A DNA stretch of 64,000 nucleotides from Nonomuraea thailandensis (GTDB lineage Bacteria; Actinomycetota; Actinomycetes; Streptosporangiales; Streptosporangiaceae). The notes under the pieces are model-generated. The model worked only from the letters and a program-made list of their open reading frames with translations. It had not been told where the DNA came from and did not search any database. This document shows, piece by piece, positions 12,548-24,626 of the stretch. The first letter of the stretch is position 1. The number at the start of each line of letters is the position of its first letter. The position numbers and the translations under genes are program-made. Where the stretch lies: assembly GCF_024172165.1 (NCBI RefSeq), contig NZ_JAMZEB010000002.1:7151501-7215500 (forward strand), given 5' to 3'.

Positions 12548-13834
12548 TCAGAGGAAATACCGCATCCAGACGTACAGCCAGGCCAGCACCGTGCTGAAGG
12601 CGGTGACGACGATCCCGTACCGGGTGAACTGCCAGAAGCTGATCTTGTGCCCGTTGCGGGCGGCGATGCCGAGGGCCACCACGTTGGCGCTGGCCGCGAC
12701 CGCGGTGCCGTTCCCGCCGAAGTCGGCGCCCAGGGCGAAGGCCCACCACAGCGCCTGGCCGATCTGCGGGTCGGGGGCCGCGGCGACCACGCCCTCGACG
12801 ATGGGGGCGGTCGTGGCGACGTACGGGATGTTGTCGAAGAAGGCGCCCAGCACGCCCGAGCCGAACAGCAGCGCCGTCGCGGCCAGGAAGTAGTCGTTGC
12901 CCAGCGTGTCCAGCGCCCACGTGCCGATCGCCGCGATCACGCCGGTGTGCACCAGGCCCGCGACCATGACGAACAGCCCCATGAAGAAGACGAGCGTCGG
13001 CCACTCGACCTCGTGCAGCACCTCGGAGACGTTCGCGCGGGAGACCAGCAGCATCACGCCCGCGCCCACCAGCGCCACGATCGACGGCTCGATGTGCACC
13101 ACCGCGTGCAGCCCGAACCCGGCCACGACCGCGGCCAGCACCACCAGGCAGCGCACGAGCAGCCGCGGGTCGGTGATCGCCCGCCGCTCCTGCAGCGCCA
13201 TCACCTCGGCCACGCGGTCGGCGTTGTACTGGAACGAGCTCGCGAACAACCACCGCGCCGCCAGCACGAAGACGGCGAAGATGACCACCACGATCGGCGC
13301 CATGTGCATCAGGAAGTCGTTGAAGGTCAGGCCCGCGCGGCTGCCGATGATGATGTTGGGCGGGTCGCCGATGAGGGTGGCCGCGCCGCCGATGTTCGAG
13401 GCGAGGACCTCCGCGATCAGGTACGGCTGCGCGGCGATCCGCAGCCGGTTGCACACCACGATGGTGACCGGCGCGACCAGCATGATCGTGGTGACGTTGT
13501 CGAGGAACGGCGAGGCGATGGCGGTGATGGCCATCAGCATCACCATCAGCCGGTACGGGCGGCCCTTGGACTTCTTGGCGGCCCAGATGGCGAGATAGTC
13601 GAAGACGCCCGTCTGCTTGATGACGCCGACGATGATCATCATGCCGAGCAGCAGGAAGATGACGTTCCAGTCGATGCCCTCGTGCTCCGAGAAGAACACC
13701 TCGGCGCCGGGGATGAGGCCGAGCACGGCCATCAGCCCGGCGGCGATCAGCACCACCTTGACCTTGTTGGCCTTCTCCGTCGCGATGAAGTAGAAGGCCA
13801 CCAGGAAGATCGCCAGTGCGGCGAAGGCGCTCAT
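12548..13834 (-). CDS. SLC13/ArsB/NhaD-type anion or ion permease
   Basis: A 428-residue ion-transporter-superfamily permease with about 11-12 membrane helices in two inverted halves. The signature loops are SPFLDNVTTIMLVAP, followed by GGAATLIGDPPNIIIG, and in the second half GAFFDNIPYVATTAP and FALGADFGGNGTAVAASANV. These match the ArsB/NhaD/SLC13 group (arsenite, sodium/proton, sulfate or dicarboxylate transport); sequence alone does not pick the ion. ATG 13834 begins at the first helix (MSAFAALAIFLVAF). It has a poor ribosome site and its ATGA overlaps the stop of a 24-codon leader ORF, so translation is probably coupled. It lies downstream of a CBS-domain gene and near the formate dehydrogenase island. 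Confidence 0.85.
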   Translation of the reverse strand: MSAFAALAIFLVAFYFIATEKANKVKVVLIAAGLMAVLGLIPGAEVFFSEHEGIDWNVIFLLLGMMIIVGVIKQTGVFDYLAIWAAKKSKGRPYRLMVMLMAITAIASPFLDNVTTIMLVAPVTIVVCNRLRIAAQPYLIAEVLASNIGGAATLIGDPPNIIIGSRAGLTFNDFLMHMAPIVVVIFAVFVLAARWLFASSFQYNADRVAEVMALQERRAITDPRLLVRCLVVLAAVVAGFGLHAVVHIEPSIVALVGAGVMLLVSRANVSEVLHEVEWPTLVFFMGLFVMVAGLVHTGVIAAIGTWALDTLGNDYFLAATALLFGSGVLGAFFDNIPYVATTAPIVEGVVAAAPDPQIGQALWWAFALGADFGGNGTAVAASANVVALGIAARNGHKISFWQFTRYGIVVTAFSTVLAWLYVWMRYFL

Positions 13835-13905
13835 CCCGCCTGCCCCGGCGGCCCGGACCGGTCCACCGCGCGGGATGAGTGCAGGGCGGGACAACAGCGG
13901 ATCAT
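13831..13905 (-). CDS. 24-residue leader ORF with adjacent Cys codons
   Basis: A short ORF starting MIRCCPALHSSRAVD. It has a GGAGGT ribosome site (13910-13915) 4 bases before its ATG, and its TGA overlaps the permease ATG. Residues 4 and 5 are both Cys, each encoded by TGT, an uncommon choice in this GC-rich sequence. Small upstream ORFs with runs of Cys codons act in cysteine-responsive control in mycobacteria. By analogy this may be a leader that tunes permease translation. Expression is not proven, and it could be chance. Confidence 0.45.
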   Translation of the reverse strand: MIRCCPALHSSRAVDRSGPPGQAG

Positions 13906-13979
13906 GGTGACCTCCGTCAGTCGGGCATGCTTCGGCCCGGGCAGGCATGGGGAGCCCGCCCGGTTGATCGGGAAAGGGG

Positions 13980-14438: not shown

Positions 14439-14603
14439 GTCGCTGTCTCCCTCCGGCTCCCGTCCATCCTGGAGGTGGAGGCGGGCCGGGGGCCATCGGG
14501 TCCGGCACCCATCTGGGCATGGATAGAACATGTAGGGACGTACTTCTTGATGGGGGTCAGACCGCATGGACAATCGCACACCCGGACGACGAGGCTAGAG
14601 GCG
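14439..14603 (+). promoter_or_regulatory. Divergent promoter region between CBS gene and sensor kinase gene
   Basis: 165 bases separate two divergent genes, so both promoters must lie here. A weak inverted repeat, GGGGCCATCGGGTCC near 14488-14503, loosely resembles DevR/DosR-type boxes but has mismatches. No clear -35/-10 pair stands out. Confidence 0.3.
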
Positions 14604-15650
14604 ATGAACGATCGCGCGAAGGGCGGCACGGGGGACGCGCCGCCGGCCGGGACGCGTCGCGCGGGCGCGCCGCGCGGCGCGTCCCGGCCGGCGGCTCAAG
14701 GCCTGTTCCGGCGGCTGTTCGTCATCAACGGCCTGGTGTTCGCGACCGGCACGCTCGTGCTCGCGCTCTCCCCCGCCACCGTCTCCGCCCCGGTCGTGTG
14801 GGCCGAGGTGCCGGTCCTGCTGGTCGGGCTGGCGGTGATGCTGGGCGCCAACGCGCTGCTGCTGCGCCGCAGCCTGGCCCCGCTGGACGCGCTGACGACG
14901 CTGATGCAGCGGGTGGACCTGCTGCGCACCGGCGACCGCCTGTCCGACAGCGGCAACAGCGACCTCACCCACCTGATCGCCACGTTCAACGCCATGCTGG
15001 ACCGGCTGGAGGCCGAGCGCAGCGCCAGCAGCGCCCACGCGCTGGCCGCGCAGGAGGGCGAGCGGCAGCGCATCGCCCGCGAGCTGCACGACGAGATCGG
15101 CCAGAGCCTGACCGTGGTGCTGCTGGGCCTGAAGCGGGTGGTGGACCGCGCGCCGGCCGACCTGAAGGAGGACCTGCACGGCGTGCAGGAGACCGTGCGG
15201 GCCAGCCTCGACGAGGTGCGCCAGGTCGCCCGCCGCCTGCGCCCCGGCGTGCTGGAGGACCTCGGCCTGCACAGCGCCCTCAGCGCCCTGACCACGGACG
15301 TCTCCAGGATGAGCGGCGTCCCGGTGACCCGCCACCTGCAGCCCGACCACCCGGCCCTGGGCCCGGACGTCGAGCTCGTCCTGTACCGGATCGCGCAGGA
15401 GAGCCTGACCAACATCGCCAGGCACGCCCGGGCCACCCGCGCCGAGCTGTCACTCGCGGTCGAGGACGGCCGTCTGGTGCTGCGCATCACCGACGACGGC
15501 CGGGGCGGCGTCGTCCAGGAGGGCGCCGGCATCCGCGGCATGCGCGAGCGCGCCCTGCTCATCGGCGCCCGCCTGACCGTCGACTCCCCGCCGGGCCAGG
15601 GCACCCGCGTCAGCCTCGTCATTCCTCCGGACCGAAGGACGGCCCCGTGA
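14604..15650 (+). CDS. NarL-type sensor histidine kinase
   Basis: A 348-residue two-component sensor. After a basic N-terminus come two membrane helices (LFVINGLVFATGTLVLAL and VPVLLVGLAVMLGANALLL), then a HAMP-like linker. A HisKA_3 dimerisation helix carries the phospho-acceptor His in RIARELHDEIGQSL. The HATPase_c domain shows the N box (ESLTNIARHA) and G boxes (DDGRGG, GIRGMRERA). There is little extracytoplasmic sequence, so it probably senses within the membrane or cytoplasm. The downstream response regulator gene overlaps by GTGA. The pair converges head-to-head on the formate dehydrogenase genes and may regulate redox or respiratory genes; the signal is unknown. Confidence 0.9.
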   Translation: MNDRAKGGTGDAPPAGTRRAGAPRGASRPAAQGLFRRLFVINGLVFATGTLVLALSPATVSAPVVWAEVPVLLVGLAVMLGANALLLRRSLAPLDALTTLMQRVDLLRTGDRLSDSGNSDLTHLIATFNAMLDRLEAERSASSAHALAAQEGERQRIARELHDEIGQSLTVVLLGLKRVVDRAPADLKEDLHGVQETVRASLDEVRQVARRLRPGVLEDLGLHSALSALTTDVSRMSGVPVTRHLQPDHPALGPDVELVLYRIAQESLTNIARHARATRAELSLAVEDGRLVLRITDDGRGGVVQEGAGIRGMRERALLIGARLTVDSPPGQGTRVSLVIPPDRRTAP

Positions 15651-16297
15651 ACAAGACCCGGATCCTGCTGGCCGACGACCACGCGCTGGTCCGCCGGGGC
15701 CTGCGGCTGATCCTCGACGCCGAGCCCGACCTGGAGGTGGTCGCCGAGGCCGCCGACGGCGCGCAGGCCGTGGCCGCGGCCTCGGAGGAGAACGTCGACC
15801 TGGCCATCCTCGACATCGCGATGCCCCGCATGACCGGCCTCCAGGCGGCCAGGGAGATCTCCAGGCGGGCACCCGGCATCCGCATCCTGATCCTGTCGAT
15901 GTACGACAACGAGCAGTACTTCTTCGAGTCGCTCAAGGTCGGCGCGTCCGGCTACGTGCTCAAGTCGGTCGCCGACCAGGACCTGCTGGAGGCGTGCCGG
16001 GCCACCATGCGCGGCGAGCCGTTCCTCTACCCGGGCGCGGTCACCGCGCTCATCCGCGACTACCTGCAGCGGGACCGGGAGGGCGAGCGCATGCCCGAGA
16101 GCATCCTGACGCCGCGGGAGGAGGAGATCGTCAAGCTGATCGCGGAGGGCAACTCGGCGAAGGAGATCGCCGAGACGCTGGTCATCAGCGTCAAGACGGT
16201 CGATCGGCACCGGGCGAACATCCTGCAGAAGCTCGGCATGCGCGACCGCCTGGAGCTGACCCGGTACGCCATCCGCGCCGGCCTGGTCGAGCCCTGA
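15647..16297 (+). CDS. NarL/LuxR-family response regulator
   Basis: A 216-residue regulator. The N-terminal receiver domain has the acidic pair in LLADDHALVRRG, the phospho-acceptor Asp in LAILDIAMPRMTG and the conserved Lys in GYVLKSV. The C-terminal LuxR helix-turn-helix is LTPREEEIVKLIAEGNSAKE through VISVKTVDRHRANI. The GTG start overlaps the kinase stop, and GAAGGAC upstream can serve as ribosome site. It is the cognate partner of the preceding kinase. The gene ends directly against the converging NrfD-type gene, with no room for a separate terminator. Confidence 0.92.
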   Translation: MNKTRILLADDHALVRRGLRLILDAEPDLEVVAEAADGAQAVAAASEENVDLAILDIAMPRMTGLQAAREISRRAPGIRILILSMYDNEQYFFESLKVGASGYVLKSVADQDLLEACRATMRGEPFLYPGAVTALIRDYLQRDREGERMPESILTPREEEIVKLIAEGNSAKEIAETLVISVKTVDRHRANILQKLGMRDRLELTRYAIRAGLVEP

Positions 16298-17200
16298 TCA
16301 CACCTGGACGCTGAAGATGATCGCCGCCCGCAGGGCCAGCACCCCGGCCAGCACCAGCAGCGGCAGCACCACCGAGTACCGCATCGCCACCGCCGGGCCG
16401 GCCGACAGGCGCTCGGTGGCCAGCCCGTACAGGCCGGGGAGCAGCCCGGCCAGGACCACCGCCCACAGCAGCAGCCAGGGCGGGCCGAACACGATCTCCT
16501 GCGTGCCCGCGGCGATCAGCGTCACCGCGAACACCACGATCAGCGCCAGCTCCAGCAGCGAGTACAGCCGCTCCGATACCGACAGCATGGGCACGCTCGG
16601 CCGCGCCTCCGGCCGGTAGCGGGCCAGGAGCAGCATCAGGGCCGCCGACCCCGCCAGCCCGGAGGCCAGGAAGAGCCCGCCCAGCGCGAACGTGTCGCTC
16701 CACACCGGCTGGTTCGACACCGACAGCAGCACGCCCGTGTACCCGGCGATGAACAGCCCGACCAGCGATCCGGCCACGTTGAACACCCGGCCGTCCAGCC
16801 GCGTGACGAGCGGCAGCCGGAGCTTGCCGTCCCGCACGAGCGCCGCGGCGAACGACACCGTGGTCACCGCTCCGAACACGACCAGCGCCCACGACCCGAT
16901 CGACATCGGCGACCAGTACTTGAAGTTCAGCCCCGGGTGGCCGGGCGTGGTGTTGACCAGCATGTGCCAGAACCGCAGCGGCTGCCCGAGATCCAGCGCC
17001 AGCAGCAGCGGCGCGACGAGCATCGGCGGGAAGGCGATGTAGTAGCCGATCCTGGCCATCGGCTCGTCGCCGGGCGCGTCGCGCAGCCTGAGCAGGGTGG
17101 CCAGCACGTACGAGCCGCCGGACAGGCCCGCCAGGACGAAGTAGAACAGGATGTACCACAGCCAGTCCGGCGGCCCGGCGAAGTGCTGCACCTCATCCAT
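16298..17200 (-). CDS. NrfD/PsrC-type membrane subunit of formate dehydrogenase
   Basis: A 300-residue integral membrane protein with about eight or nine helices and no haem-binding cytochrome b pattern. Features such as WLWYILFYFVLAGLSGGSYV and RFWHMLVNTTPGHPGLNFKYWSPM mark the NrfD/PsrC quinone-reactive family rather than the cytochrome b556 gamma subunit of the E. coli enzyme. It should pass electrons from the iron-sulfur beta subunit to the menaquinone pool. It overlaps the beta-subunit gene by 8 bases and is the last gene of the formate dehydrogenase operon. Confidence 0.87.
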   Translation of the reverse strand: MDEVQHFAGPPDWLWYILFYFVLAGLSGGSYVLATLLRLRDAPGDEPMARIGYYIAFPPMLVAPLLLALDLGQPLRFWHMLVNTTPGHPGLNFKYWSPMSIGSWALVVFGAVTTVSFAAALVRDGKLRLPLVTRLDGRVFNVAGSLVGLFIAGYTGVLLSVSNQPVWSDTFALGGLFLASGLAGSAALMLLLARYRPEARPSVPMLSVSERLYSLLELALIVVFAVTLIAAGTQEIVFGPPWLLLWAVVLAGLLPGLYGLATERLSAGPAVAMRYSVVLPLLVLAGVLALRAAIIFSVQV

Positions 17201-18011
17201 CGGCCGACTCCTCGACCTTCTCCTTGCGGCGGCGCAGCGCGATCAGGCCGCCGAGCACGCCCAGCACGGCCGTGACGGCGGCGGTCAGATAGCCGCCGGC
17301 GTTGTTGCGGCTCGGCAGCACGGCGTCGCGCTCGTCGGGCAGCCCGTACCGCCCCGGCTCGTCCATGAGCAGGAAGAACGCGTTCAGCCCGCCGTACACC
17401 TTCTCGTCGTGCCCGTAGAGCCTGGCCTGCGTGACGCCCTGCCCGCGCAGCGTCTCCAGCCGCTCGGCCGCCGTCCGCCGCAGCTCGGAGACCGGCCCGA
17501 ACCTGATCGACTCGGTGGGGCAGGCCTTGGCGCAGGCCGGGGTCATGTCGTTCTGGAGGCGGTCGTAGCAGAGCGTGCACTTCTGCGCGATGCCGGTCGT
17601 CTCGCTCGCGCCGATCACGTCGTACGGGCAGGCCGCGATGCAGTTGCGGCAGCCGTTGCAGACGTCGGGCTGGATGAAGACGCTGTCGAACTCGGTCCTG
17701 ATGATCGCGTTCGTCGGGCAGACCTCCATGCAGCTCGCCTGCTTGCAGTGCTTGCAGACGTCCGACATCATCAGCCACACCGTGCCGTTGCCGGGGGTGA
17801 CGGCCTCGTCGGGGACGTTGTCGTGGAACTGCACGTGCCGCCAGGTCTCGGCGTCCAGCCTGCCGGTGTTGTCGAAGCCGTCCAGGAACGACGGCGCGTG
17901 TCCCTCCAGCCGGTTCCACTGCTTGCAGGCCACCTCGCAGGCCTTGCAGCCGATGCACACGCTGGTGTCGGTGAAGAACCCGTACGCCTGTCCCGGTGTG
18001 ATGTGCGGCAT
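17193..18011 (-). CDS. Formate dehydrogenase iron-sulfur (beta) subunit
   Basis: A 272-residue ferredoxin-like subunit with four cysteine clusters: CIGCKACEVACKQWN, CKHCKQASCMEVCP, CNGCRNCIAACP, and CTLCYDRL with CAKACPTESI. It should carry four [4Fe-4S] centres from the catalytic subunit to the membrane. A C-terminal helix (TAAVTAVLGVLGGLIALRRR) anchors it in the membrane, as in FdnH-type subunits. ATG 18011 lies 1 base after the fdhE stop. It has no signal of its own and is probably exported in complex with the Tat-bearing alpha subunit. Confidence 0.92.
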   Translation of the reverse strand: MPHITPGQAYGFFTDTSVCIGCKACEVACKQWNRLEGHAPSFLDGFDNTGRLDAETWRHVQFHDNVPDEAVTPGNGTVWLMMSDVCKHCKQASCMEVCPTNAIIRTEFDSVFIQPDVCNGCRNCIAACPYDVIGASETTGIAQKCTLCYDRLQNDMTPACAKACPTESIRFGPVSELRRTAAERLETLRGQGVTQARLYGHDEKVYGGLNAFFLLMDEPGRYGLPDERDAVLPSRNNAGGYLTAAVTAVLGVLGGLIALRRRKEKVEESADG

Positions 18012-18012
18012 C

Positions 18013-18807
18013 TCAGAACCCCATCAGGTTGGGCGTGATCTTGGTGTGGCCCTGCTCGGCCATGTGCAGGTCGATGGGCACCGCGGCCAGCTCGTCCACC
18101 CGGGGCACCGCCCGGGGTTCGCGGCCCAGGTCGACGTCGATGAGGTACCGGTGGCAGCTCTCGCAGGTCTCGGCCCGCAACTGCGGGAACAGCGCCTCCG
18201 CTTCCGCCTCGCGACGCCCCACGGACGGCGCCGCACGATCGCCGGGCGCGCCCCCGGCGCCTTCGGCGTGGACCGTGCGTCGGCCGCTCTCACCGCAGTT
18301 CGGGCAGGTGGTGGCGGAGAAGCTCCACTCGTGCGGGCACTTGGCGCAGGCCAGCACGCGCCGCCCGCTGACGAGCGGATCCTCGCTCGCGACCCGGTAG
18401 CTGAGCTGCGGCGGCCCACCGCAGGCGGGACAACGTCCCGGCGCGCCCTCCGGACGCCCCTCGAACGGGACGACGCGCATCGTGGCACGGGCCAGGTAAC
18501 GTTCGACCGGCGTGAGCTCCTCGTCCGCGACCCAGGCGGCCAGCAGCGCCGCACCGTCGCCGCCCCCGGCCCCGCTCCCGGCCCCGCCGACGGCCCCGCC
18601 GACGGCCTTCGCCAGCGCGGGAGGCCCGTGGGCCACCGTGGCCGCCACCACCCGCGGCAGCACCTCGGCTGCGGCCTGCTTCAGCCGCGCACAGCCGCAG
18701 GCCGACTCCCAGACGCCCACCAGCGCCAGGTACAACCCCAGCACCTCACCGGCATGCGGATACCGCTCCCGCAGCTCCAGGGCCCGTGCCCGCTCCTGCC
18801 CGTACAT
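18013..18807 (-). CDS. fdhE: Formate dehydrogenase accessory protein FdhE
   Basis: A 264-residue FdhE-family protein, needed for maturation of Tat-exported formate dehydrogenases. The C-terminal half carries CxxC pairs typical of its rubredoxin-like iron sites: CPACGGPP, CAKCPHEW, CPNCGESG and CESCHRYLIDVD. The N-terminal half is Ala-rich and helical. Its ATG overlaps the alpha-subunit stop (TGATG). Placement between the alpha and beta genes, rather than at the end of the operon, is unlike E. coli but keeps it co-expressed with its client. Confidence 0.88.
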   Translation of the reverse strand: MYGQERARALELRERYPHAGEVLGLYLALVGVWESACGCARLKQAAAEVLPRVVAATVAHGPPALAKAVGGAVGGAGSGAGGGDGAALLAAWVADEELTPVERYLARATMRVVPFEGRPEGAPGRCPACGGPPQLSYRVASEDPLVSGRRVLACAKCPHEWSFSATTCPNCGESGRRTVHAEGAGGAPGDRAAPSVGRREAEAEALFPQLRAETCESCHRYLIDVDLGREPRAVPRVDELAAVPIDLHMAEQGHTKITPNLMGF

Positions 18808-21800
18808 CAGATCTTCTCGATGTCGACCAGGAACGCCTTGTACTCGGGCGTCCGCGCGCTCGCGTCACCCACGAACGGCGTCAGGGCGTTGGCCAGCCAG
18901 TGCTGCCCGGTGTTGATCCCGACGAACCCCCAGTGGATCGGGATCCCGATCTGGTACACCTGCCGCCCGTCCACCTGCAGCGGCCCGAGCCGCTTGGTCA
19001 CCACGGCCCGCACCTCGAGCCGCCCGCGCCGCGACGACACCCGCACCATGTCCCCGGTCTCGATGCCCTTCTCCCGCGCCAGCCCCGCCGGCACCTCGAC
19101 GAACGCCTCCGGCTGGAGCTGGACCAGGTGCTCGACGTTCTGCGTGACGTAGTGCTCGTGCTCGGTGAGCCGGTACGAGGTGGCCACGTACGGGTAGTCG
19201 GCGACGGTGCCGAACCGGGACGCGCGCCCGGCTCGCTCGTCGTACAGGTACGCCACCGGCGTGGCCGACTGCTGCGGGTGCAGCGGGTTGGCGATCGGCG
19301 ACTCGATCGGCTCGTAGTGCTCGGGGAACGGCCCGTCGGCGACGGCGTTGCTGAACAGGCGGGCCACGCCCTCACCCGTCATGATGAACGGCAGCGGCGC
19401 GTCCGGCCCCGGACCGGTCGTCGGCGGGTAGTCGGGCACGTCGCCCACCCACTTGCCGCCGACCCAGGCGATGCCGGGGCGTTCGGGGTCCCAGGGGCGG
19501 CCGTTCTCGTCGGCGGAGGCGCGGTTGTAGAGGATGCGGCGGTTCGCGGGCCAGCTCCAGGCCCAGCCCGGGTAGAGGCCCATGCCGCTGGGGTCGTTCC
19601 TGCCCGGGTCCTGGACGCCGTCGCGCCGCCTGGTCAGGTTGCCCTCCTCGGGGTAGTGGCCGGTGTAGATCCAGTCGCCCGCGGCGGTGGTGCCGTCGTC
19701 GTTGAGGTCGACGAAGGTCGACAGCCGCTTGCCGGTCCGCAGGTCCCGGCCGTTGATCTCCTGCGCGATCTCGTCCAGCTCGGGCTTGCGCGGGTTCCGG
19801 TACGGCATCGTCAGCTTCAGGACCGGATCGGGGAACCTGCCGCCCTGCGTCTGGTACAGCTCGCGGACCCGGAGGAACAGCTCGGCGAGGATCCAGTGGT
19901 CGTGCCTGGCCTCGCCCTCCGGCGGCAGCACCTGCTCCTTCCACTGCGCCCACCGGCCGCTGTTGGTGAACGAGCCGTCCTTCTCGATCCAGTGGGTGGC
20001 CGGGAGCATGAACACCTCGGTCTGGACCTGCTCCGGGTCCGTGCCGGGCGCCCGCCAGAACTCCGAGCTGGTGGTGTTGAACGGGTCCATGACGCACAGC
20101 CACTTGAGGTTCGCCAGCGCCTGGAGGACCTGGTTGGAGTCGGGGCCGATGCTGGTCGCCGTCATCCCGGACAGCATGACTCCCTGCATCCTGCCCCGCA
20201 GCGCCTGGTCGAAGATGGAGATCCAGGAGGAGTTGGCGGCCGGCTTGGGCAGGTAGTCGAAGGCGAACTCGTCGTCCTCGGTGGCGGCGTCGCCGTACCA
20301 GGCCTTGAGCAGGCTGACCAGGTAGCGGCGGTAGTTCTCGCCGAAGAAGTTCACCGCGCGCGGGTGGTGCTTGACGCTGGCGCTCTCGTCCAGGTACGCC
20401 TTGATGTCCTTCTGGCCCGGGGCGGGGATGCGCAGGTAACCGGGCAGGATGTCCCAGGAGATGGCGTGGTCGGTGTTGCCCTGGATGTTGGCGTGGCCGC
20501 GTTCGGCGTTCATGCCGCCGCCGGGGCGGCCCATGTTGCCGAGCAGCAGTTGCAGGATGGCGCCCGAGCGGATGAGCTGCACGCCGGTGGTGTGGTGGGT
20601 CAGGCCGACGGCGTACACGATGGTCATGACCTTGTCCGGCCGTCCCATCTCGCCGACCAGCTCGGCCACCTGGACGAACTGCTCGCGCGGGATGCCGGTG
20701 ATCCGGGAGACCGTGTCGGGGTCGTAGCGGCGATAGTGGGCGGCCAGCAGGTTGAGCACCGAGCGCGGGTGGTCGAGGTCGATCCTGGCGTGGCCGTCCT
20801 GGTCCGTCTCGTACGCCCACAGCTTGGTGTTGTAGACGCCCTGCTCGCGGTCGAAGCCGTTGAACATGCCGTCCTGGAAGGCGTACCCCTCCTTGACCAC
20901 GAAGCCGGCGTTGGTGGCCCAGCGGACGTACTCGTCGTGGTAGAGCCTGTTGCTCAGCACGTGGTTGATGAGCCCGCCGAAGTAGGCGACGTCCGTCCCG
21001 GTGCGGATGCGCACGTACGTGTCGGCCACCGCCGACGTCCTGGTGAACCGCGGATCCGCGTGGATGATCTTCGCGCCCCTGTCGAGCTTGGCGCGCATCA
21101 GCCATCTGAAGCCCACCGGGTGGGCCTCGGCCGGGTTGGCGCCGTTGACCAGGATGAGATCGGCGTGCCTGATGTCACGCCAGTGGTTGGTCATGGCCCC
21201 TCGGCCGAACGTGGCAGCCAAACTGACCACCGTGGGACCGTGTCAAACACGGGCCTGTTGTTCGAGGTGAACCAGGCCCAACCCCCTCATCAGCTTCGTC
21301 GCGAGATATCCCTCTTCGGAGCTGAACGCCGCCCCGCCGGCGAAGGCGATGCCCTCGCAGCGGTTGACGACGTTCCCGTCGGCGTCCTGCGTGACGAACG
21401 TGGCGTCGCGCGAGGTCTTGATGTTCCTGGCCAGGCGATCGAGCGTGAACTCCCAGGAGACCTTCGTCCACTCGGCCGCGCCCGGGGCGCGGTAGAGCGG
21501 CTGCGGCACCCGCCTGCGCGAGACGGCCAGTTGCAGCGACGTCGCGCCCTTGGGGCACAGGGTGCCCTCGTTGACGGGACTGTCCGGGTCGCCCTCGATC
21601 TGCAGCAGCTCCGTCCTGCCGTTCGGGGCCTTCCTGGTGTAGGCGATGATCGAGCAGCCGACCGCGCAGTACGGGCAGAGCGAGTGGGCCAGCGTGGCCC
21701 CTTCGATGCGCAGGCGCTGCTTGACGTCGATCGACTCGGTCAGGTCGAACCCCAGGGCCGATCCGCCGAGCACGCCCACCGGGCCGATGCTCAGGAACCG

Positions 21801-21818
21801 CCGTCGGCTGACCTCCAT
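18807..21818 (-). CDS. fdnG: Formate dehydrogenase catalytic subunit, selenocysteine-containing
   Basis: A 1003-residue molybdopterin or tungstopterin formate dehydrogenase of the FdnG/FdoG type. The ATG at 21818 follows GGGAGG and gives a twin-arginine signal (VSRRRFLSIGP). One [4Fe-4S] site is formed by Cys48, 51, 55 and 88. Codon 192 (21243-21245) is an in-frame TGA. The flanks, ARV before and HGPTVVSLAATFGRGAMTNHW after, match the position where FdnG has selenocysteine, so it is read as Sec, the metal ligand. The remaining frame is open with full family motifs, including DPRFTRTSAVADTYVRIRTG and AEAHPVGFRW. Read naively, it would be miscalled as two genes or a pseudogene. It acts outside the membrane with the beta and gamma subunits, oxidising formate to CO2. 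Confidence 0.95.
21211..21245 (-). promoter_or_regulatory. UGA-Sec codon with bacterial SECIS-like hairpin
   Basis: The TGA occupies 21245-21243. Starting 13 bases after it, the transcript can fold as GUGG, a bulged U, CAG, loop UUUGG, CUG, CCAC (21230 down to 21211). That is a four-pair lower stem, a single bulged U and a three-pair upper stem with a 5-base loop. The E. coli fdhF SECIS bound by SelB has the same layout: lower stem, bulged U, three pairs, short loop. The codons forming the upper stem and loop (AGT TTG GCT) are unusually AT-rich for this genome, as expected if RNA structure constrains them. Confidence 0.75.
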
Positions 21819-21889
21819 GGTGCGGCCTCCCCTCAGCTGCGGGCCGCTGGGTACCGTTTTTTCACCGTATGAGCGGATCCTTGGCGCGT

Positions 21890-22609
21890 CTACCCCTGAG
21901 CGAGTTGCAGGTCGTGACGGCCTTCCGGATCTTCGGGGTTGCGCAGCAGGTCGAGCAGCCGGGGGTCGGCGGGGACGAGCACGCCGCGGTCGCCGCGTGC
22001 GGCCGCCGCCAGCAGCACCTCCCGCCACGCCGCCCTCCCGGCCGGCACCCCCACCGGCGCCCACCGCCCCACCCACCCGCCTTCACCGCTCGCATCCTCG
22101 GGCGCGCCTTCGTCGCCGCTCCCCTCCGCCGAACGCTCCTGGTAGCCGCCGTCCTCCAGTCGCATGACGGTCCGCCCCACCACGCCCTCGTCGGCGTCCC
22201 TCTCGTCGGCAGCCCCGATGAGGACGAGCCGGCCGCGACTCAGCCGCTCCACCGTGGCGAGCGCATGCGACCGGCCCGGGTCCGGCACGACGGCCACGAC
22301 CAGCAGCGTCCGGTACGTGACCGCGGCCAGGGCGGCGGCCAGCGTGAGGGGGTCGAGCTCGGGCGCGGCACCGTGCTCCACCCACAGCGCGTCGGCCCCT
22401 GCCGCCTCGAACGCCACCGCGTCGGTCAGCCACGCGCCCGGATCGCCCTGCGGCCTGGGCAGCACGACCCCCACCCTGACCCGCTCCCCCGCCCGTGCGG
22501 GCCCGTGCCCGCCCCCCGACCGCTCAGGCGTGCCCTCCCGGCCTGCGCCCTCCCCCGGCCGCCCGGTCACGTCCTGACCGCCTGTGCCACCCTCGGTCGC
22601 GTCGGTCAT
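21890..22609 (-). CDS. Short luciferase-like (LLM flavin oxidoreductase-type) protein coupled to selB
   Basis: A 239-residue protein. Its first ~45 residues are low complexity (Gly/Arg/Glu). The rest resembles the N-terminal barrel of LLM-class flavin monooxygenases: RVRVGVVLPRPQGDPGAWL, FEAAGADALWVEH, DPLTLAAALAAVTYRTLLVV and ATVERLSRGRLVLIGAADE. Usual members are 300-350 residues, so this one is short and may lack substrate-binding elements. Its ATG overlaps the selB stop (ATGA), so it is translated with selB. It ends 71 bases before the formate dehydrogenase start. A role in selenium or formate metabolism is suggested only by position. Confidence 0.6.
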   Translation of the reverse strand: MTDATEGGTGGQDVTGRPGEGAGREGTPERSGGGHGPARAGERVRVGVVLPRPQGDPGAWLTDAVAFEAAGADALWVEHGAAPELDPLTLAAALAAVTYRTLLVVAVVPDPGRSHALATVERLSRGRLVLIGAADERDADEGVVGRTVMRLEDGGYQERSAEGSGDEGAPEDASGEGGWVGRWAPVGVPAGRAAWREVLLAAAARGDRGVLVPADPRLLDLLRNPEDPEGRHDLQLAQG

Positions 22610-24477
22610 GGTCGTCTCTCCTCCCCGCCCGTCCCTCCGGGCTCGTGGCTCCGGCCGGTGACCACCCTCAGCCTGTCGTCGAGGCGGCGAGTCAGGTGCA
22701 GCCGGTCGAGGTGCTCCAGCAGCGGGATCACGACCCGCCGGTTGGTGCCGAGCGCGGCCCGCGCGTCCCCCGCCGTGAACGGCTGCGGCAACCGGCCCAG
22801 GATGCGGGCCGCCTCCACCTCGGCCCCCGGCAGCAGCACGACCCCGTCGGCCAGCCGCAGCAGCAATCCCGCCCGCGCGGCCAGCGCCACCGCCTGACGG
22901 GTGAGGCCCAGCTCGGGCAGCCGCGCCGCCTCCGGTGCCAGGTACGGGGCCCGTACCAGCTCCTCCCGCAACCGCCCCACCGCCTCGGCCACCGCTTCCG
23001 GCACCCCGTCCCCGTCGATCCGCCCGCCGGAGACCCGCAGCGGCGGACATGCCCTGACCAACGCCTCGACCAGCTCACGCGCGGGCAGCCCGAGCGCGGT
23101 GCGGGCGGCGTCCACAGGGATGCCGGGCTGCTCCGCCACGATCGCCCCGAGCCGCTCGCCCAGTTCCTTCCACCGCCCGGCCTCCACCAGCCAGTCCCCC
23201 GCGCCGGGCACGTCCAGCGCACGCGGATCGAGGCCCATCGCGACCAGCTCCGACCGCCGCACCACCCCCCGCCAGCCCAGCACGGTCGCCGCATCCGGCA
23301 TGCGAGCCGTCGCACCATCCGGCGTGGTGAACGGCGCTGTGAACGGCGCTGTGAACGGCGCTGTGAACGGCGCCAGCTCCGCGGCCCGCCTGGCGCCCGC
23401 GCCGCGGCCGCGCAGTGGCGGTGGCAGCACGTCCAGCACCAGCACCCCGGCGATGGGCCGCCCGGAACAGCGCAACAACGCCCGATCACCGACCCGCAAC
23501 GGCAGCGCCCGAGCCAGCGCCAGCCGGACCGCACCCGTTCCGGCCGCCTCCGCCGAGGACGCCAGGGCAGCAGCCCCCGCCGTATCACCGCCGGACGGCC
23601 CCAAGGGGCGTACCCGGACGGGGACCGAGGCCGACCCGAGGTGCAGCACCGCCTCGCGCGGCGGTTCCCCCACGCCGGCCCCCGTCTCCAGCCGGACGTC
23701 GACCACGGACGTCTCCACCCAGGCCCCGGGCGTGAGCAGCGCCTTCCCCCGCGACACCCGCTCCAGCTCCACCCCGCGCAGGTTGACCGCCACCCGAGCC
23801 GCCGCCCGGACCGCCTCCACGGCCTCCTCGGTCACCTGGAGCCCCTTCACCCGTACCGGCTCCCCGTCCAGCACCAGCACGTCCCCCACCCGCAGCCGCC
23901 CCGCCGACAGCGTGCCCGTGACGACGGTCCCGGCGCCCCTGATGGTGAACGCCCGGTCGATCCACAACCGCACCGGAGCCCGGACGTCGGCCGCGGGCAG
24001 CCCCGCCACCAGCCGGTCGAGCGCGAGCCGCAGCTCGTCGAGCCCCTCCCCCGTGCTCCCGCTCACCTGGACGACCGGCCACGGCACCCGTTCCCCGGCC
24101 TCCTCCACCGCCAGCGCGGGATCCATCAGGTCGCACCGCGTCACCACCAGCAACCCGCGCTCGACCCCGAGCGCCTCGATCGCCTCCCAGTGCTCCTGCG
24201 ACTGCGCCTGCCAGCCCTGATCCGCCGCCAGCACGAACATCACCGCCGGCACCGGCCCCAGCCCGGCCAGCATGTTGGTGACGAACCGCTCGTGCCCCGG
24301 CACGTCCACGAACGCCAGCCGCCGCCCCGAGGGCAGCGTGGTCCAGGCGAACCCGAGGTCGATGGTCATGCCGCGGCGGCGCTCCTCGGCCCACCGGTCG
24401 GGCTCGATCCCGGTCAGGGCGCGTACCAGGGTGGACTTGCCGTGGTCCACGTGCCCGGCCGTGGCGATCACGTACAT
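22606..24477 (-). CDS. selB: Selenocysteine-specific elongation factor SelB
   Basis: A 623-residue SelB, which delivers Sec-tRNA to UGA codons marked by a SECIS. The N-terminal GTPase has AGHVDHGKST at residues 7-16, the switch segment RRGMTIDLGFAW, DVPGHERF and TRCDLMD. EF-Tu-like domains II and III follow (RAFTIRGAGTVVTGTL). The C-terminal winged-helix repeats that bind the SECIS are present (YLAPEAARLPELGLTRQ, FTAGDARAALGTNRRVVIPL). The ATG at 24477 matches the family N-terminus. A 12-base unit repeated four times inserts APFT repeats between domain III and the winged helices. The tRNA-Sec gene lies immediately upstream. Confidence 0.95.
   Translation of the reverse strand: MYVIATAGHVDHGKSTLVRALTGIEPDRWAEERRRGMTIDLGFAWTTLPSGRRLAFVDVPGHERFVTNMLAGLGPVPAVMFVLAADQGWQAQSQEHWEAIEALGVERGLLVVTRCDLMDPALAVEEAGERVPWPVVQVSGSTGEGLDELRLALDRLVAGLPAADVRAPVRLWIDRAFTIRGAGTVVTGTLSAGRLRVGDVLVLDGEPVRVKGLQVTEEAVEAVRAAARVAVNLRGVELERVSRGKALLTPGAWVETSVVDVRLETGAGVGEPPREAVLHLGSASVPVRVRPLGPSGGDTAGAAALASSAEAAGTGAVRLALARALPLRVGDRALLRCSGRPIAGVLVLDVLPPPLRGRGAGARRAAELAPFTAPFTAPFTAPFTTPDGATARMPDAATVLGWRGVVRRSELVAMGLDPRALDVPGAGDWLVEAGRWKELGERLGAIVAEQPGIPVDAARTALGLPARELVEALVRACPPLRVSGGRIDGDGVPEAVAEAVGRLREELVRAPYLAPEAARLPELGLTRQAVALAARAGLLLRLADGVVLLPGAEVEAARILGRLPQPFTAGDARAALGTNRRVVIPLLEHLDRLHLTRRLDDRLRVVTGRSHEPGGTGGEERRP
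23327..23374 (-). repeat. In-frame 12-bp tandem repeat inside selB
   Basis: Four consecutive copies of GTGAACGGCGCT on the + strand (last copy ends in C) encode APFT repeats in SelB around residues 369-384. They lie in a linker between the EF-Tu-like and winged-helix parts, where length changes are likely tolerated. Confidence 0.9.
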
Positions 24478-24534
24478 GCCCGCACCAGCTCCTCGTCCGC
24501 GGTCCGCCTGCTCATGGCAGGCCTCCTGGAGGTG

Positions 24535-24626
24535 CGGAGGCGCACGGGGATCGAACCCGCCGGCGACGCCGCGCGCCGCCCACCGATTTTGAAGACCGGG
24601 GTGCCCACCAGAACACAAGCGCCTCC
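24535..24626 (-). tRNA. selC: Selenocysteine tRNA (anticodon UCA)
   Basis: A 92-base tRNA on the minus strand. The acceptor stem is 8 base pairs (GGAGGCGC at 24619-24626 with GCGCCTCC from 24536-24543), as in bacterial tRNA-Sec. The anticodon loop is CTTCAAA with anticodon TCA (24590-24592), flanked by CCGGT and ATCGG. A long extra arm and a T loop in GGTTCGATCCC are present. CCA is not encoded. A possible -10 (TATCGT, near 24640-24645) precedes it. It lies 57 bases upstream of selB on the same strand. Confidence 0.95.

Follow-up and report, generated by a model that had tools for sequence, protein, structure and literature searches.

The stretch analysed here (the window, 64,000 nucleotides of Nonomuraea thailandensis DNA) raises the question whether a single TGA codon ends a formate dehydrogenase gene or is translated within it. 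Two open reading frames on the minus strand, 21818–21243 and 21242–18807, had been taken in a sequence-only reading to lie in one frame, separated by this TGA alone, and the codon had been proposed to encode selenocysteine (Sec). We followed up this proposal by comparison with related genes, by analysis of the downstream mRNA region and by a search for the decoding components in the genus and family.

Reading frame, conservation and operon of fdhA

The reading of a common frame was correct: 21818–18807(-) is a frame of 1003 codons, and its sole interruption is the TGA at codon 192 (21245–21243). The gene and its neighbours are as follows.

18807..21818, minus strand: fdhA, FdnG-type formate dehydrogenase alpha subunit with predicted Sec192 (TIGR01553, 1275.8 bits; 1kqf alignment over 1–1002)
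21243..21245, minus strand: predicted Sec codon UGA, codon 192 (TGA in 91/91 distinct covering relatives)
18013..18807, minus strand: FdhE-like accessory protein (FdhE_C PF24860, 4.1e-11; TIGR01562, 48 bits, below the cut-off of 188)
17193..18011, minus strand: fdhB-like iron–sulfur beta subunit (Fer4_11, 7.6e-25; TIGR01582, 152.9 bits versus a cut-off of 334.7)
16298..17200, minus strand: NrfD-type membrane (gamma) subunit (PF03916, 2.4e-19)
21890..22609, minus strand: small luciferase-like (LLM) protein, cut down (PF00296, 1.1e-6)

The match of the read-through protein to TIGR01553 (formate dehydrogenase-N alpha) spans residues 3–1002 and exceeds the cut-off of 814.2. The TGA is flanked by EQQARV-TGA-HGPTVVSLAATFGRGAMTN. 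These flanks had been said to match the Sec site of FdnG, and they do: in a phmmer comparison with PDB, codon 192 lies opposite the X of E. coli FdnG (1kqf), which we take to be its Sec. The resemblance to FdnG extends over the full length and includes U192-H193, the cysteines C48, C51, C55 and C88, and the Arg of ERGHANIQG opposite RGHSNIQG; His193 and the Arg are presumably catalytic and the four cysteines presumably bind the Fe4S4 cluster. The Tat-type amino terminus MEVSRRRFL resembles MDVSRRQFF of FdnG. FdhA is nevertheless only about 46% identical to FdnG-annotated copies in the plasmid collection. A 1028-residue ORF on the opposite strand (18786–21872(+)) is taken as a shadow of the GC-rich gene.

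Conservation of the codon was analysed in 106 related loci, of which ten duplicate contigs already counted, leaving 96 distinct loci. Five of these (L100, L105, L106, L112 and L116) stop short of codon 192. All 91 that cover the site have TGA and none has Cys, and thus the TGA is not there by chance. The TGA-bearing relatives are about 40 to 97% identical to FdhA; their hosts are Nonomuraea, Streptomyces, Amycolatopsis, Rhodococcus and Pseudonocardia, and metagenome bins with such loci carry the names Chloroflexi, Dormiibacterota, Rokuibacteriota and Eremiobacterota. A plain stop followed by an independent start, named beforehand as the observation that would speak against Sec, was not seen in close relatives, where the match extends to either side of the TGA.

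A second formate dehydrogenase of the same genome (G000:C2:1416502-1419543) has Cys at the aligned site (ARVCHSSTVV). The alignment with FdnG and a Cys homologue that had been suggested as a check thus places codon 192 on the FdnG Sec position and on the Cys of this paralogue, which is the sole Cys case established among the formate dehydrogenases studied here. Six other Nonomuraea loci with this second type were fetched; L208 stops short of the site, and the five that cover it all have TGA. These five are 40–41% identical to FdhA and 62–64% identical to the Cys paralogue. Because five Nonomuraea relatives have TGA at the site, the Cys copy may have arisen by a Sec-to-Cys change. Other second-type enzymes had been considered as Cys forms; this was rejected, as the listed pieces begin 3′ of the site.

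The ATG of the fdhE-like gene overlaps the fdhA stop codon (TGATG), and throughout the operon starts and stops overlap or nearly do so. The order after fdhA is FdhE-like protein, beta-subunit-like ferredoxin and NrfD-type membrane protein. This differs from the FdnGHI complex: a cytochrome b gamma subunit was not found, the third subunit being of the NrfD type, and fdhE lies inside the operon. From this gene content we suggest that the enzyme probably works like formate dehydrogenase-N, but with a different type of membrane subunit. The operon is adjoined by genes for an ArsB/MamN-like transporter (12548–13948(-), scores below cut-offs) and a LuxR-type response regulator (14519–16297(+)).

The small luciferase-like gene sits between selB and fdhA, its start overlapping the selB stop codon. 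Of 84 distinct clade-1 loci, 57 contain a homologue; in 43 it lies on the fdhA strand no more than 300 nt upstream of that gene, and in 14 elsewhere in the locus. None was found in 16 clade-1 loci despite at least 800 nt of upstream sequence, in 11 more with less room, or in 12 clade-2 loci. PF00296 matches 24 of 38 members. The protein has a conserved end (PRLLDLLRNPxxxxDRxDLxLAxG) and occurs also in bins named for other phyla. It is possibly a dedicated helper of this formate dehydrogenase clade. A longer ORF (21890–23050) was rejected as the gene; it enters the selB region in another frame, and the gene was taken as 21890–22609.

A hairpin downstream of the UGA

21213..21231, minus strand: putative bSECIS hairpin, positions 15–33 counted from the U of UGA, loop 22–26 (pairing and synonymous constraint)

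In the stem of this hairpin, positions 15–21 pair with 33–27, enclosing the loop 22–26 (U of UGA = 1). Paired cells number 372 of 385 in 55 distinct 45-mers, a score biased toward itself by the choice of the structure on the very sequences used for scoring. Sliding the 3′ side by one to three positions reduces the paired cells to 20–62%. By clade, 318 of 322 cells are paired in clade 1 and 54 of 63 in clade 2; the outermost pair, 15–33, fails in all nine distinct clade-2 sequences, which counts against the model. Compensatory changes occur within the stem: pair 18–30 is GC in 39 sequences, CG in 12, GU in two, UA in one and UG in one, and pair 19–29 is GC in 42, CG in nine and AC in four. In the loop, G23 and U24 are invariant (55/55). 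These are presumably also the loop positions of the E. coli bSECIS, and the G23-U24 loop would be a further likeness to E. coli FdnG. An initial model with a bulged U and the loop UUUGG was dropped, as the changes in relatives fit the stem 15–21/27–33.

Synonymous variation was analysed in 66 sequences (the 96 distinct loci minus 18 below 64% identity, minus 13 partial ones, plus the window). Among 766 windows of eight codons, the minimum of synonymous diversity begins at codon 195, where it reaches 0.23 of the expected value against a median of 0.85. AGT encodes Ser199 in 65/65 and TTG encodes Leu200 in 62/65 sequences, although AGT makes up 4.1% of Ser codons and TTG 4.8% of Leu codons. The Cys paralogue provides a control within the genome: the AGT and TTG of the hairpin are missing from the codons that follow its Cys. 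Against this, low synonymous variation is likewise seen around codon 491, and widening the windows to 16 codons brings the two stretches close to each other (0.459 and 0.467). In folding energy the window sequence does not stand out (z = –0.82 for 45 nt and –1.65 for 25 nt), its lowest-energy fold being a hairpin that departs slightly from the covariation model. The comparative data support a bSECIS with compensatory changes directly 3′ of the fdhA UGA.

Two sets of selenocysteine decoding genes

22606..24477, minus strand: selB (set 2), Sec-specific elongation factor, 623 residues, ATG at 24477 (TIGR00475, 261 bits, cut-off 242; SelB-wing_3)
24536..24626, minus strand: tRNA-Sec (set 2), anticodon UCA, G73 (Rfam RF01852, 71.1 bits, gathering cut-off 47; ARAGORN 24534–24626)

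The presence of SelB and tRNA-Sec genes upstream of fdhA, also part of the sequence-only reading, was confirmed by the RF01852 and TIGR00475 scores. The extent of the set-2 selB was taken from G000:C2:7174109-7175977. The set-2 tRNA-Sec folds into a clean 8/5 cloverleaf with a 6-bp D stem and an 8-bp variable arm. Genes for selA (433.7 bits) and selD (384.1 bits) are absent from the window; one copy of each over cut-off is located 0.37 Mb away (G000:C2:6795027-6797245). Together with a further tRNA-Sec (78.3 bits) and a further SelB (256.4 bits) they form set 1 (G000:C2:6795027-6799249). Both tRNA-Sec carry G73, and the two SelBs are 53% identical. The set-1 selB is followed by a gene for a protein taken for a rhodanese by eye.

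The set-2 SelBs form a single clade (support 100/100) in a tree of 36 sequences and are separate from set-1-type and other SelBs of the genus; L170 was left out of this tree, and L169 (from genome G186) is labelled there as located beside this formate dehydrogenase, though no such enzyme was found in G186. In several species selA lies between tRNA-Sec and selB (L045, PF03841), with selD also next to them in some. Gene order thus likely reflects an older cassette of selD, tRNA-Sec, selA, selB, the small gene and fdhA, from which the lineage of the window would have lost selA.

The distribution of the enzyme was determined in 341 genomes: 54 of Nonomuraea, including that of the window, and 287 others of the family. 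The close form with TGA (at least 78% identity) was found in 14 of the 54 genus genomes and two of the 287 others, which bears out the earlier statement that Sec-containing formate dehydrogenases are patchily distributed in actinobacteria. The set-2-type SelB (at least 69% identity) occurs in 14 genus genomes, that is in 13 of the 14 carriers (not G149) and in G186. The set-2-type tRNA-Sec (at least 92%) occurs in 13, namely 12 of the 14 carriers (not G149 and G187) and again G186; G187 has a different tRNA-Sec elsewhere in its genome. Three carriers with gaps in the decoding genes have split assemblies: in G149 (590 contigs) the tRNA-Sec match is weak (7.6e-7) and neither selA nor selB was found, in G139 (580 contigs) no selD is over cut-off, and in G164 (130 contigs) selA consists of two contig-end pieces, each under cut-off.

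The two sets leave room for a division of labour in which the SelB and tRNA-Sec beside fdhA are idle and set 1 decodes its UGA. Set 1 is complete, with selA, selD, tRNA-Sec and selB, and the set-2 SelB varies faster than FdhA (87–90% versus 96–97% identity in G154, G164 and G173). We nevertheless consider this unlikely. In G173 no SelB other than that of set 2 matches at E ≤ 1e-60, and the tRNA query matches the set-2 tRNA alone (three RF01852 matches were counted), yet fdhA is 97% identical and keeps its TGA, selA and selD being encoded elsewhere in the genome. Set 2 can therefore probably decode alone. The canonical fold of its tRNA and the single clade of its SelBs also argue against an idle set.

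Insertion of another residue, for example Cys carried by an unusual tRNA, is highly improbable: UGA-to-Cys recoding by a non-canonical tRNA-Cys has been published (an entry in the reference list of PMC8124441), but both tRNAs found here are tRNA-Sec with G73, and SelA and SelD are encoded. A true stop at the TGA, which would leave either a pseudogene or a further gene with its own start 3′ of the codon, can be dismissed almost entirely. The codon is formally a stop, and translation of the second part could begin at a GTG at 21230. However, the TGA recurs in each of the 91 distinct relatives that cover the site, many of them in bins named for other phyla, and the protein matches to either side of it; the second part alone would be without the Fe4S4 domain (residues 44–97); and the hairpin and the synonymous constraint disfavour a stop.

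It is very nearly certain, as far as sequence comparison can tell, that 18807–21818(-) is one unbroken fdhA gene with selenocysteine at codon 192, and FdhA would be an intact selenoenzyme rather than the remnant of a broken gene. The translation of the UGA as Sec, as originally proposed, is supported by several observations: the open frame and its homology, the TGA in 91/91 relatives, the Cys paralogue, the covariation of the SECIS, and the presence of genes for tRNA-Sec, SelA, SelB and SelD. SelA and SelD, encoded 0.37 Mb away, would make the Sec, and SelB, bound to the hairpin 3′ of the UGA, would bring Sec-tRNA-Sec to the codon; the adjacent SelB and tRNA-Sec are the presumed ones to serve fdhA. 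TGA 21245–21243 would thereby lie inside a single gene encoding the catalytic formate dehydrogenase subunit, in which Sec192 is the expected metal ligand. The enzyme would be attached to the membrane as a complex of alpha, Fe–S beta and NrfD-type gamma subunits, with export by the Tat system and quinone reduction through the NrfD subunit. Formate oxidation in large soil actinomycetes should then depend on selenium.

FdhA is an additional example of a known enzyme class, as actinobacterial Sec-containing formate dehydrogenases have already been published. Actinomycetospora chiangmaiensis DSM 45062 is described with Sec-containing FDH1-3, with selA and selB in the FDH1 cluster and with formate removal that depends on selenium (passages of PMC7176365). 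These enzymes resemble FdhA in being actinobacterial and, in the case of FDH1, in having sel genes in the cluster; they differ in that the passages concerned mention no luciferase-like gene. Horizontal transfer of fdhA with sel genes, in fdhA-selABC operons, and transfer of the Sec trait among actinobacteria are reported in parts of PMC1794560 and PMC5029168, respectively. As in the operons treated there, fdhA adjoins sel genes in the window and is scattered in distribution, actinobacteria included; unlike in those operons, selA and selD lie outside the cassette and a second SelB/tRNA-Sec set is present. The adjoining tRNA-Sec and SelB also distinguish this fdhA from E. coli fdnG. Eight bacteria with two tRNA-Sec genes, clostridia and one Shigella, are listed in PMC5330540 (in the section concerned). 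There, as here, two tRNA-Sec genes of differing sequence share a genome, but here each is paired with a separate SelB and adjoins a different candidate client. A full-text search with six phrases on duplicated SelB found no paper.

A candidate selenoprotein beside set 1

Shared in-frame TGAs were sought in eight loci around set-1-type sel genes. Many of the conserved-TGA groups listed were off-frame stops in conserved DNA and were rejected. One group was kept owing to a preceding hydrophobic stretch and to divergent members. It represents a membrane protein of about 237 residues with an in-frame TGA in the motif SGSV-U-SxNSA, encoded about 1.5 kb beyond the set-1 selB (own copy G000:C2:6800743-6801453(-), equal to L218:1501-2211 and L151:12744-13454).

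Matches at E ≤ 1e-5 were found in 107 of the 341 family genomes, in 21 of 68 genera. Every listed match over the site has one TGA, its position being verified in 31 of 31 distinct loci, and two matches without TGA (G179:C26 and one piece of G290) begin 3′ of the site. A Cys form was not seen among the 341 family genomes. A search of the plasmid collection gave one record, from Nonomuraea. Each of the 107 genomes also matches tRNA-Sec at E ≤ 7e-13, as judged by eye from the table, while tRNA-Sec is over cut-off in 230 of 341 family genomes; such co-occurrence has a chance probability of 8e-24 if kinship is ignored. Six of the seven genomes of one genus (G038-G040, G042-G044) encode the membrane protein and show no formate dehydrogenase match at E ≤ 1e-100, and the seventh, G041, has neither the membrane protein nor a strong tRNA-Sec match (1.8e-8).

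Around the site A-9, G-8, S-4, G-3, S-2, N+3 and S+4 are invariant in 31 loci, S-2 being written with five different codons. Two observations count against a selenoprotein. The stretch 5′ of the TGA has no excess of third-position changes between the own copy and a near copy in G143, and a hairpin 13–17/24–28 holds only partly in 15 distinct sequences: pair 13–28 is formed in 15 (UA 12, AU 3), 14–27 in 10, 15–26 in 12, 16–25 in 14 and 17–24 in 13. The consensus fold is weak (–2.6 kcal/mol).

Three neighbours adjoin the gene in 20 of 32 loci: a MauE-like protein (PF07291, 1.5e-10), a protein called thioredoxin-like solely from a CPNC motif, and a protein rich in Cys with a Tat signal below cut-off (0.03). 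Against Pfam and NCBIfam (E ≤ 0.1), 27 members of the membrane protein gave weak matches to ThiW (one member, 0.01) and CxpE efflux (seven members, 0.01); a PDB match at E ≤ 1 was not found. Neither its name nor its motif occurs in the 119-family selenoprotein inventory of PMC13188914, with which it was compared by name and motif. The protein thus probably represents an undescribed selenoprotein family. Divergent versions (L211:4137-4865 and L204:12835-13593) are 38–42% identical to the query, and some genomes, such as G154, hold two copies of different type.

We hold it to be fairly probable that some Nonomuraea genomes encode two Sec-decoding modules, in each of which a separate tRNA-Sec and SelB adjoin the gene of the client they serve. 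One client would be the formate dehydrogenase and the other the undescribed multi-pass membrane selenoprotein (motif SGSV-U-SxNSA, no Cys form in the genomes searched), often accompanied by the MauE-like, thioredoxin-like and Cys-rich Tat-type proteins. The main value of the fdhA analysis is that it led to the two coexisting sets and to the probable new family. If confirmed, the membrane protein adds a selenoprotein family present in about one-third of the family genomes searched and seen in no Cys form; the deep-Sep authors state, in the part of PMC12013277 concerned, that their filter may discard families without a Cys form. Likewise, if confirmed, the two modules are a natural case of one cell with two SelB/tRNA-Sec pairs, in which SelB–SECIS specificity is directly testable.

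The base preceding the UGA (window position 21246(-)) is mostly T in the fdhA sequences, where the preceding codon is GTT in 63 of 75 (duplicates included), and T precedes the UGA also in 30 of 31 loci of the set-1 membrane protein. A context effect of this base on decoding is possible.
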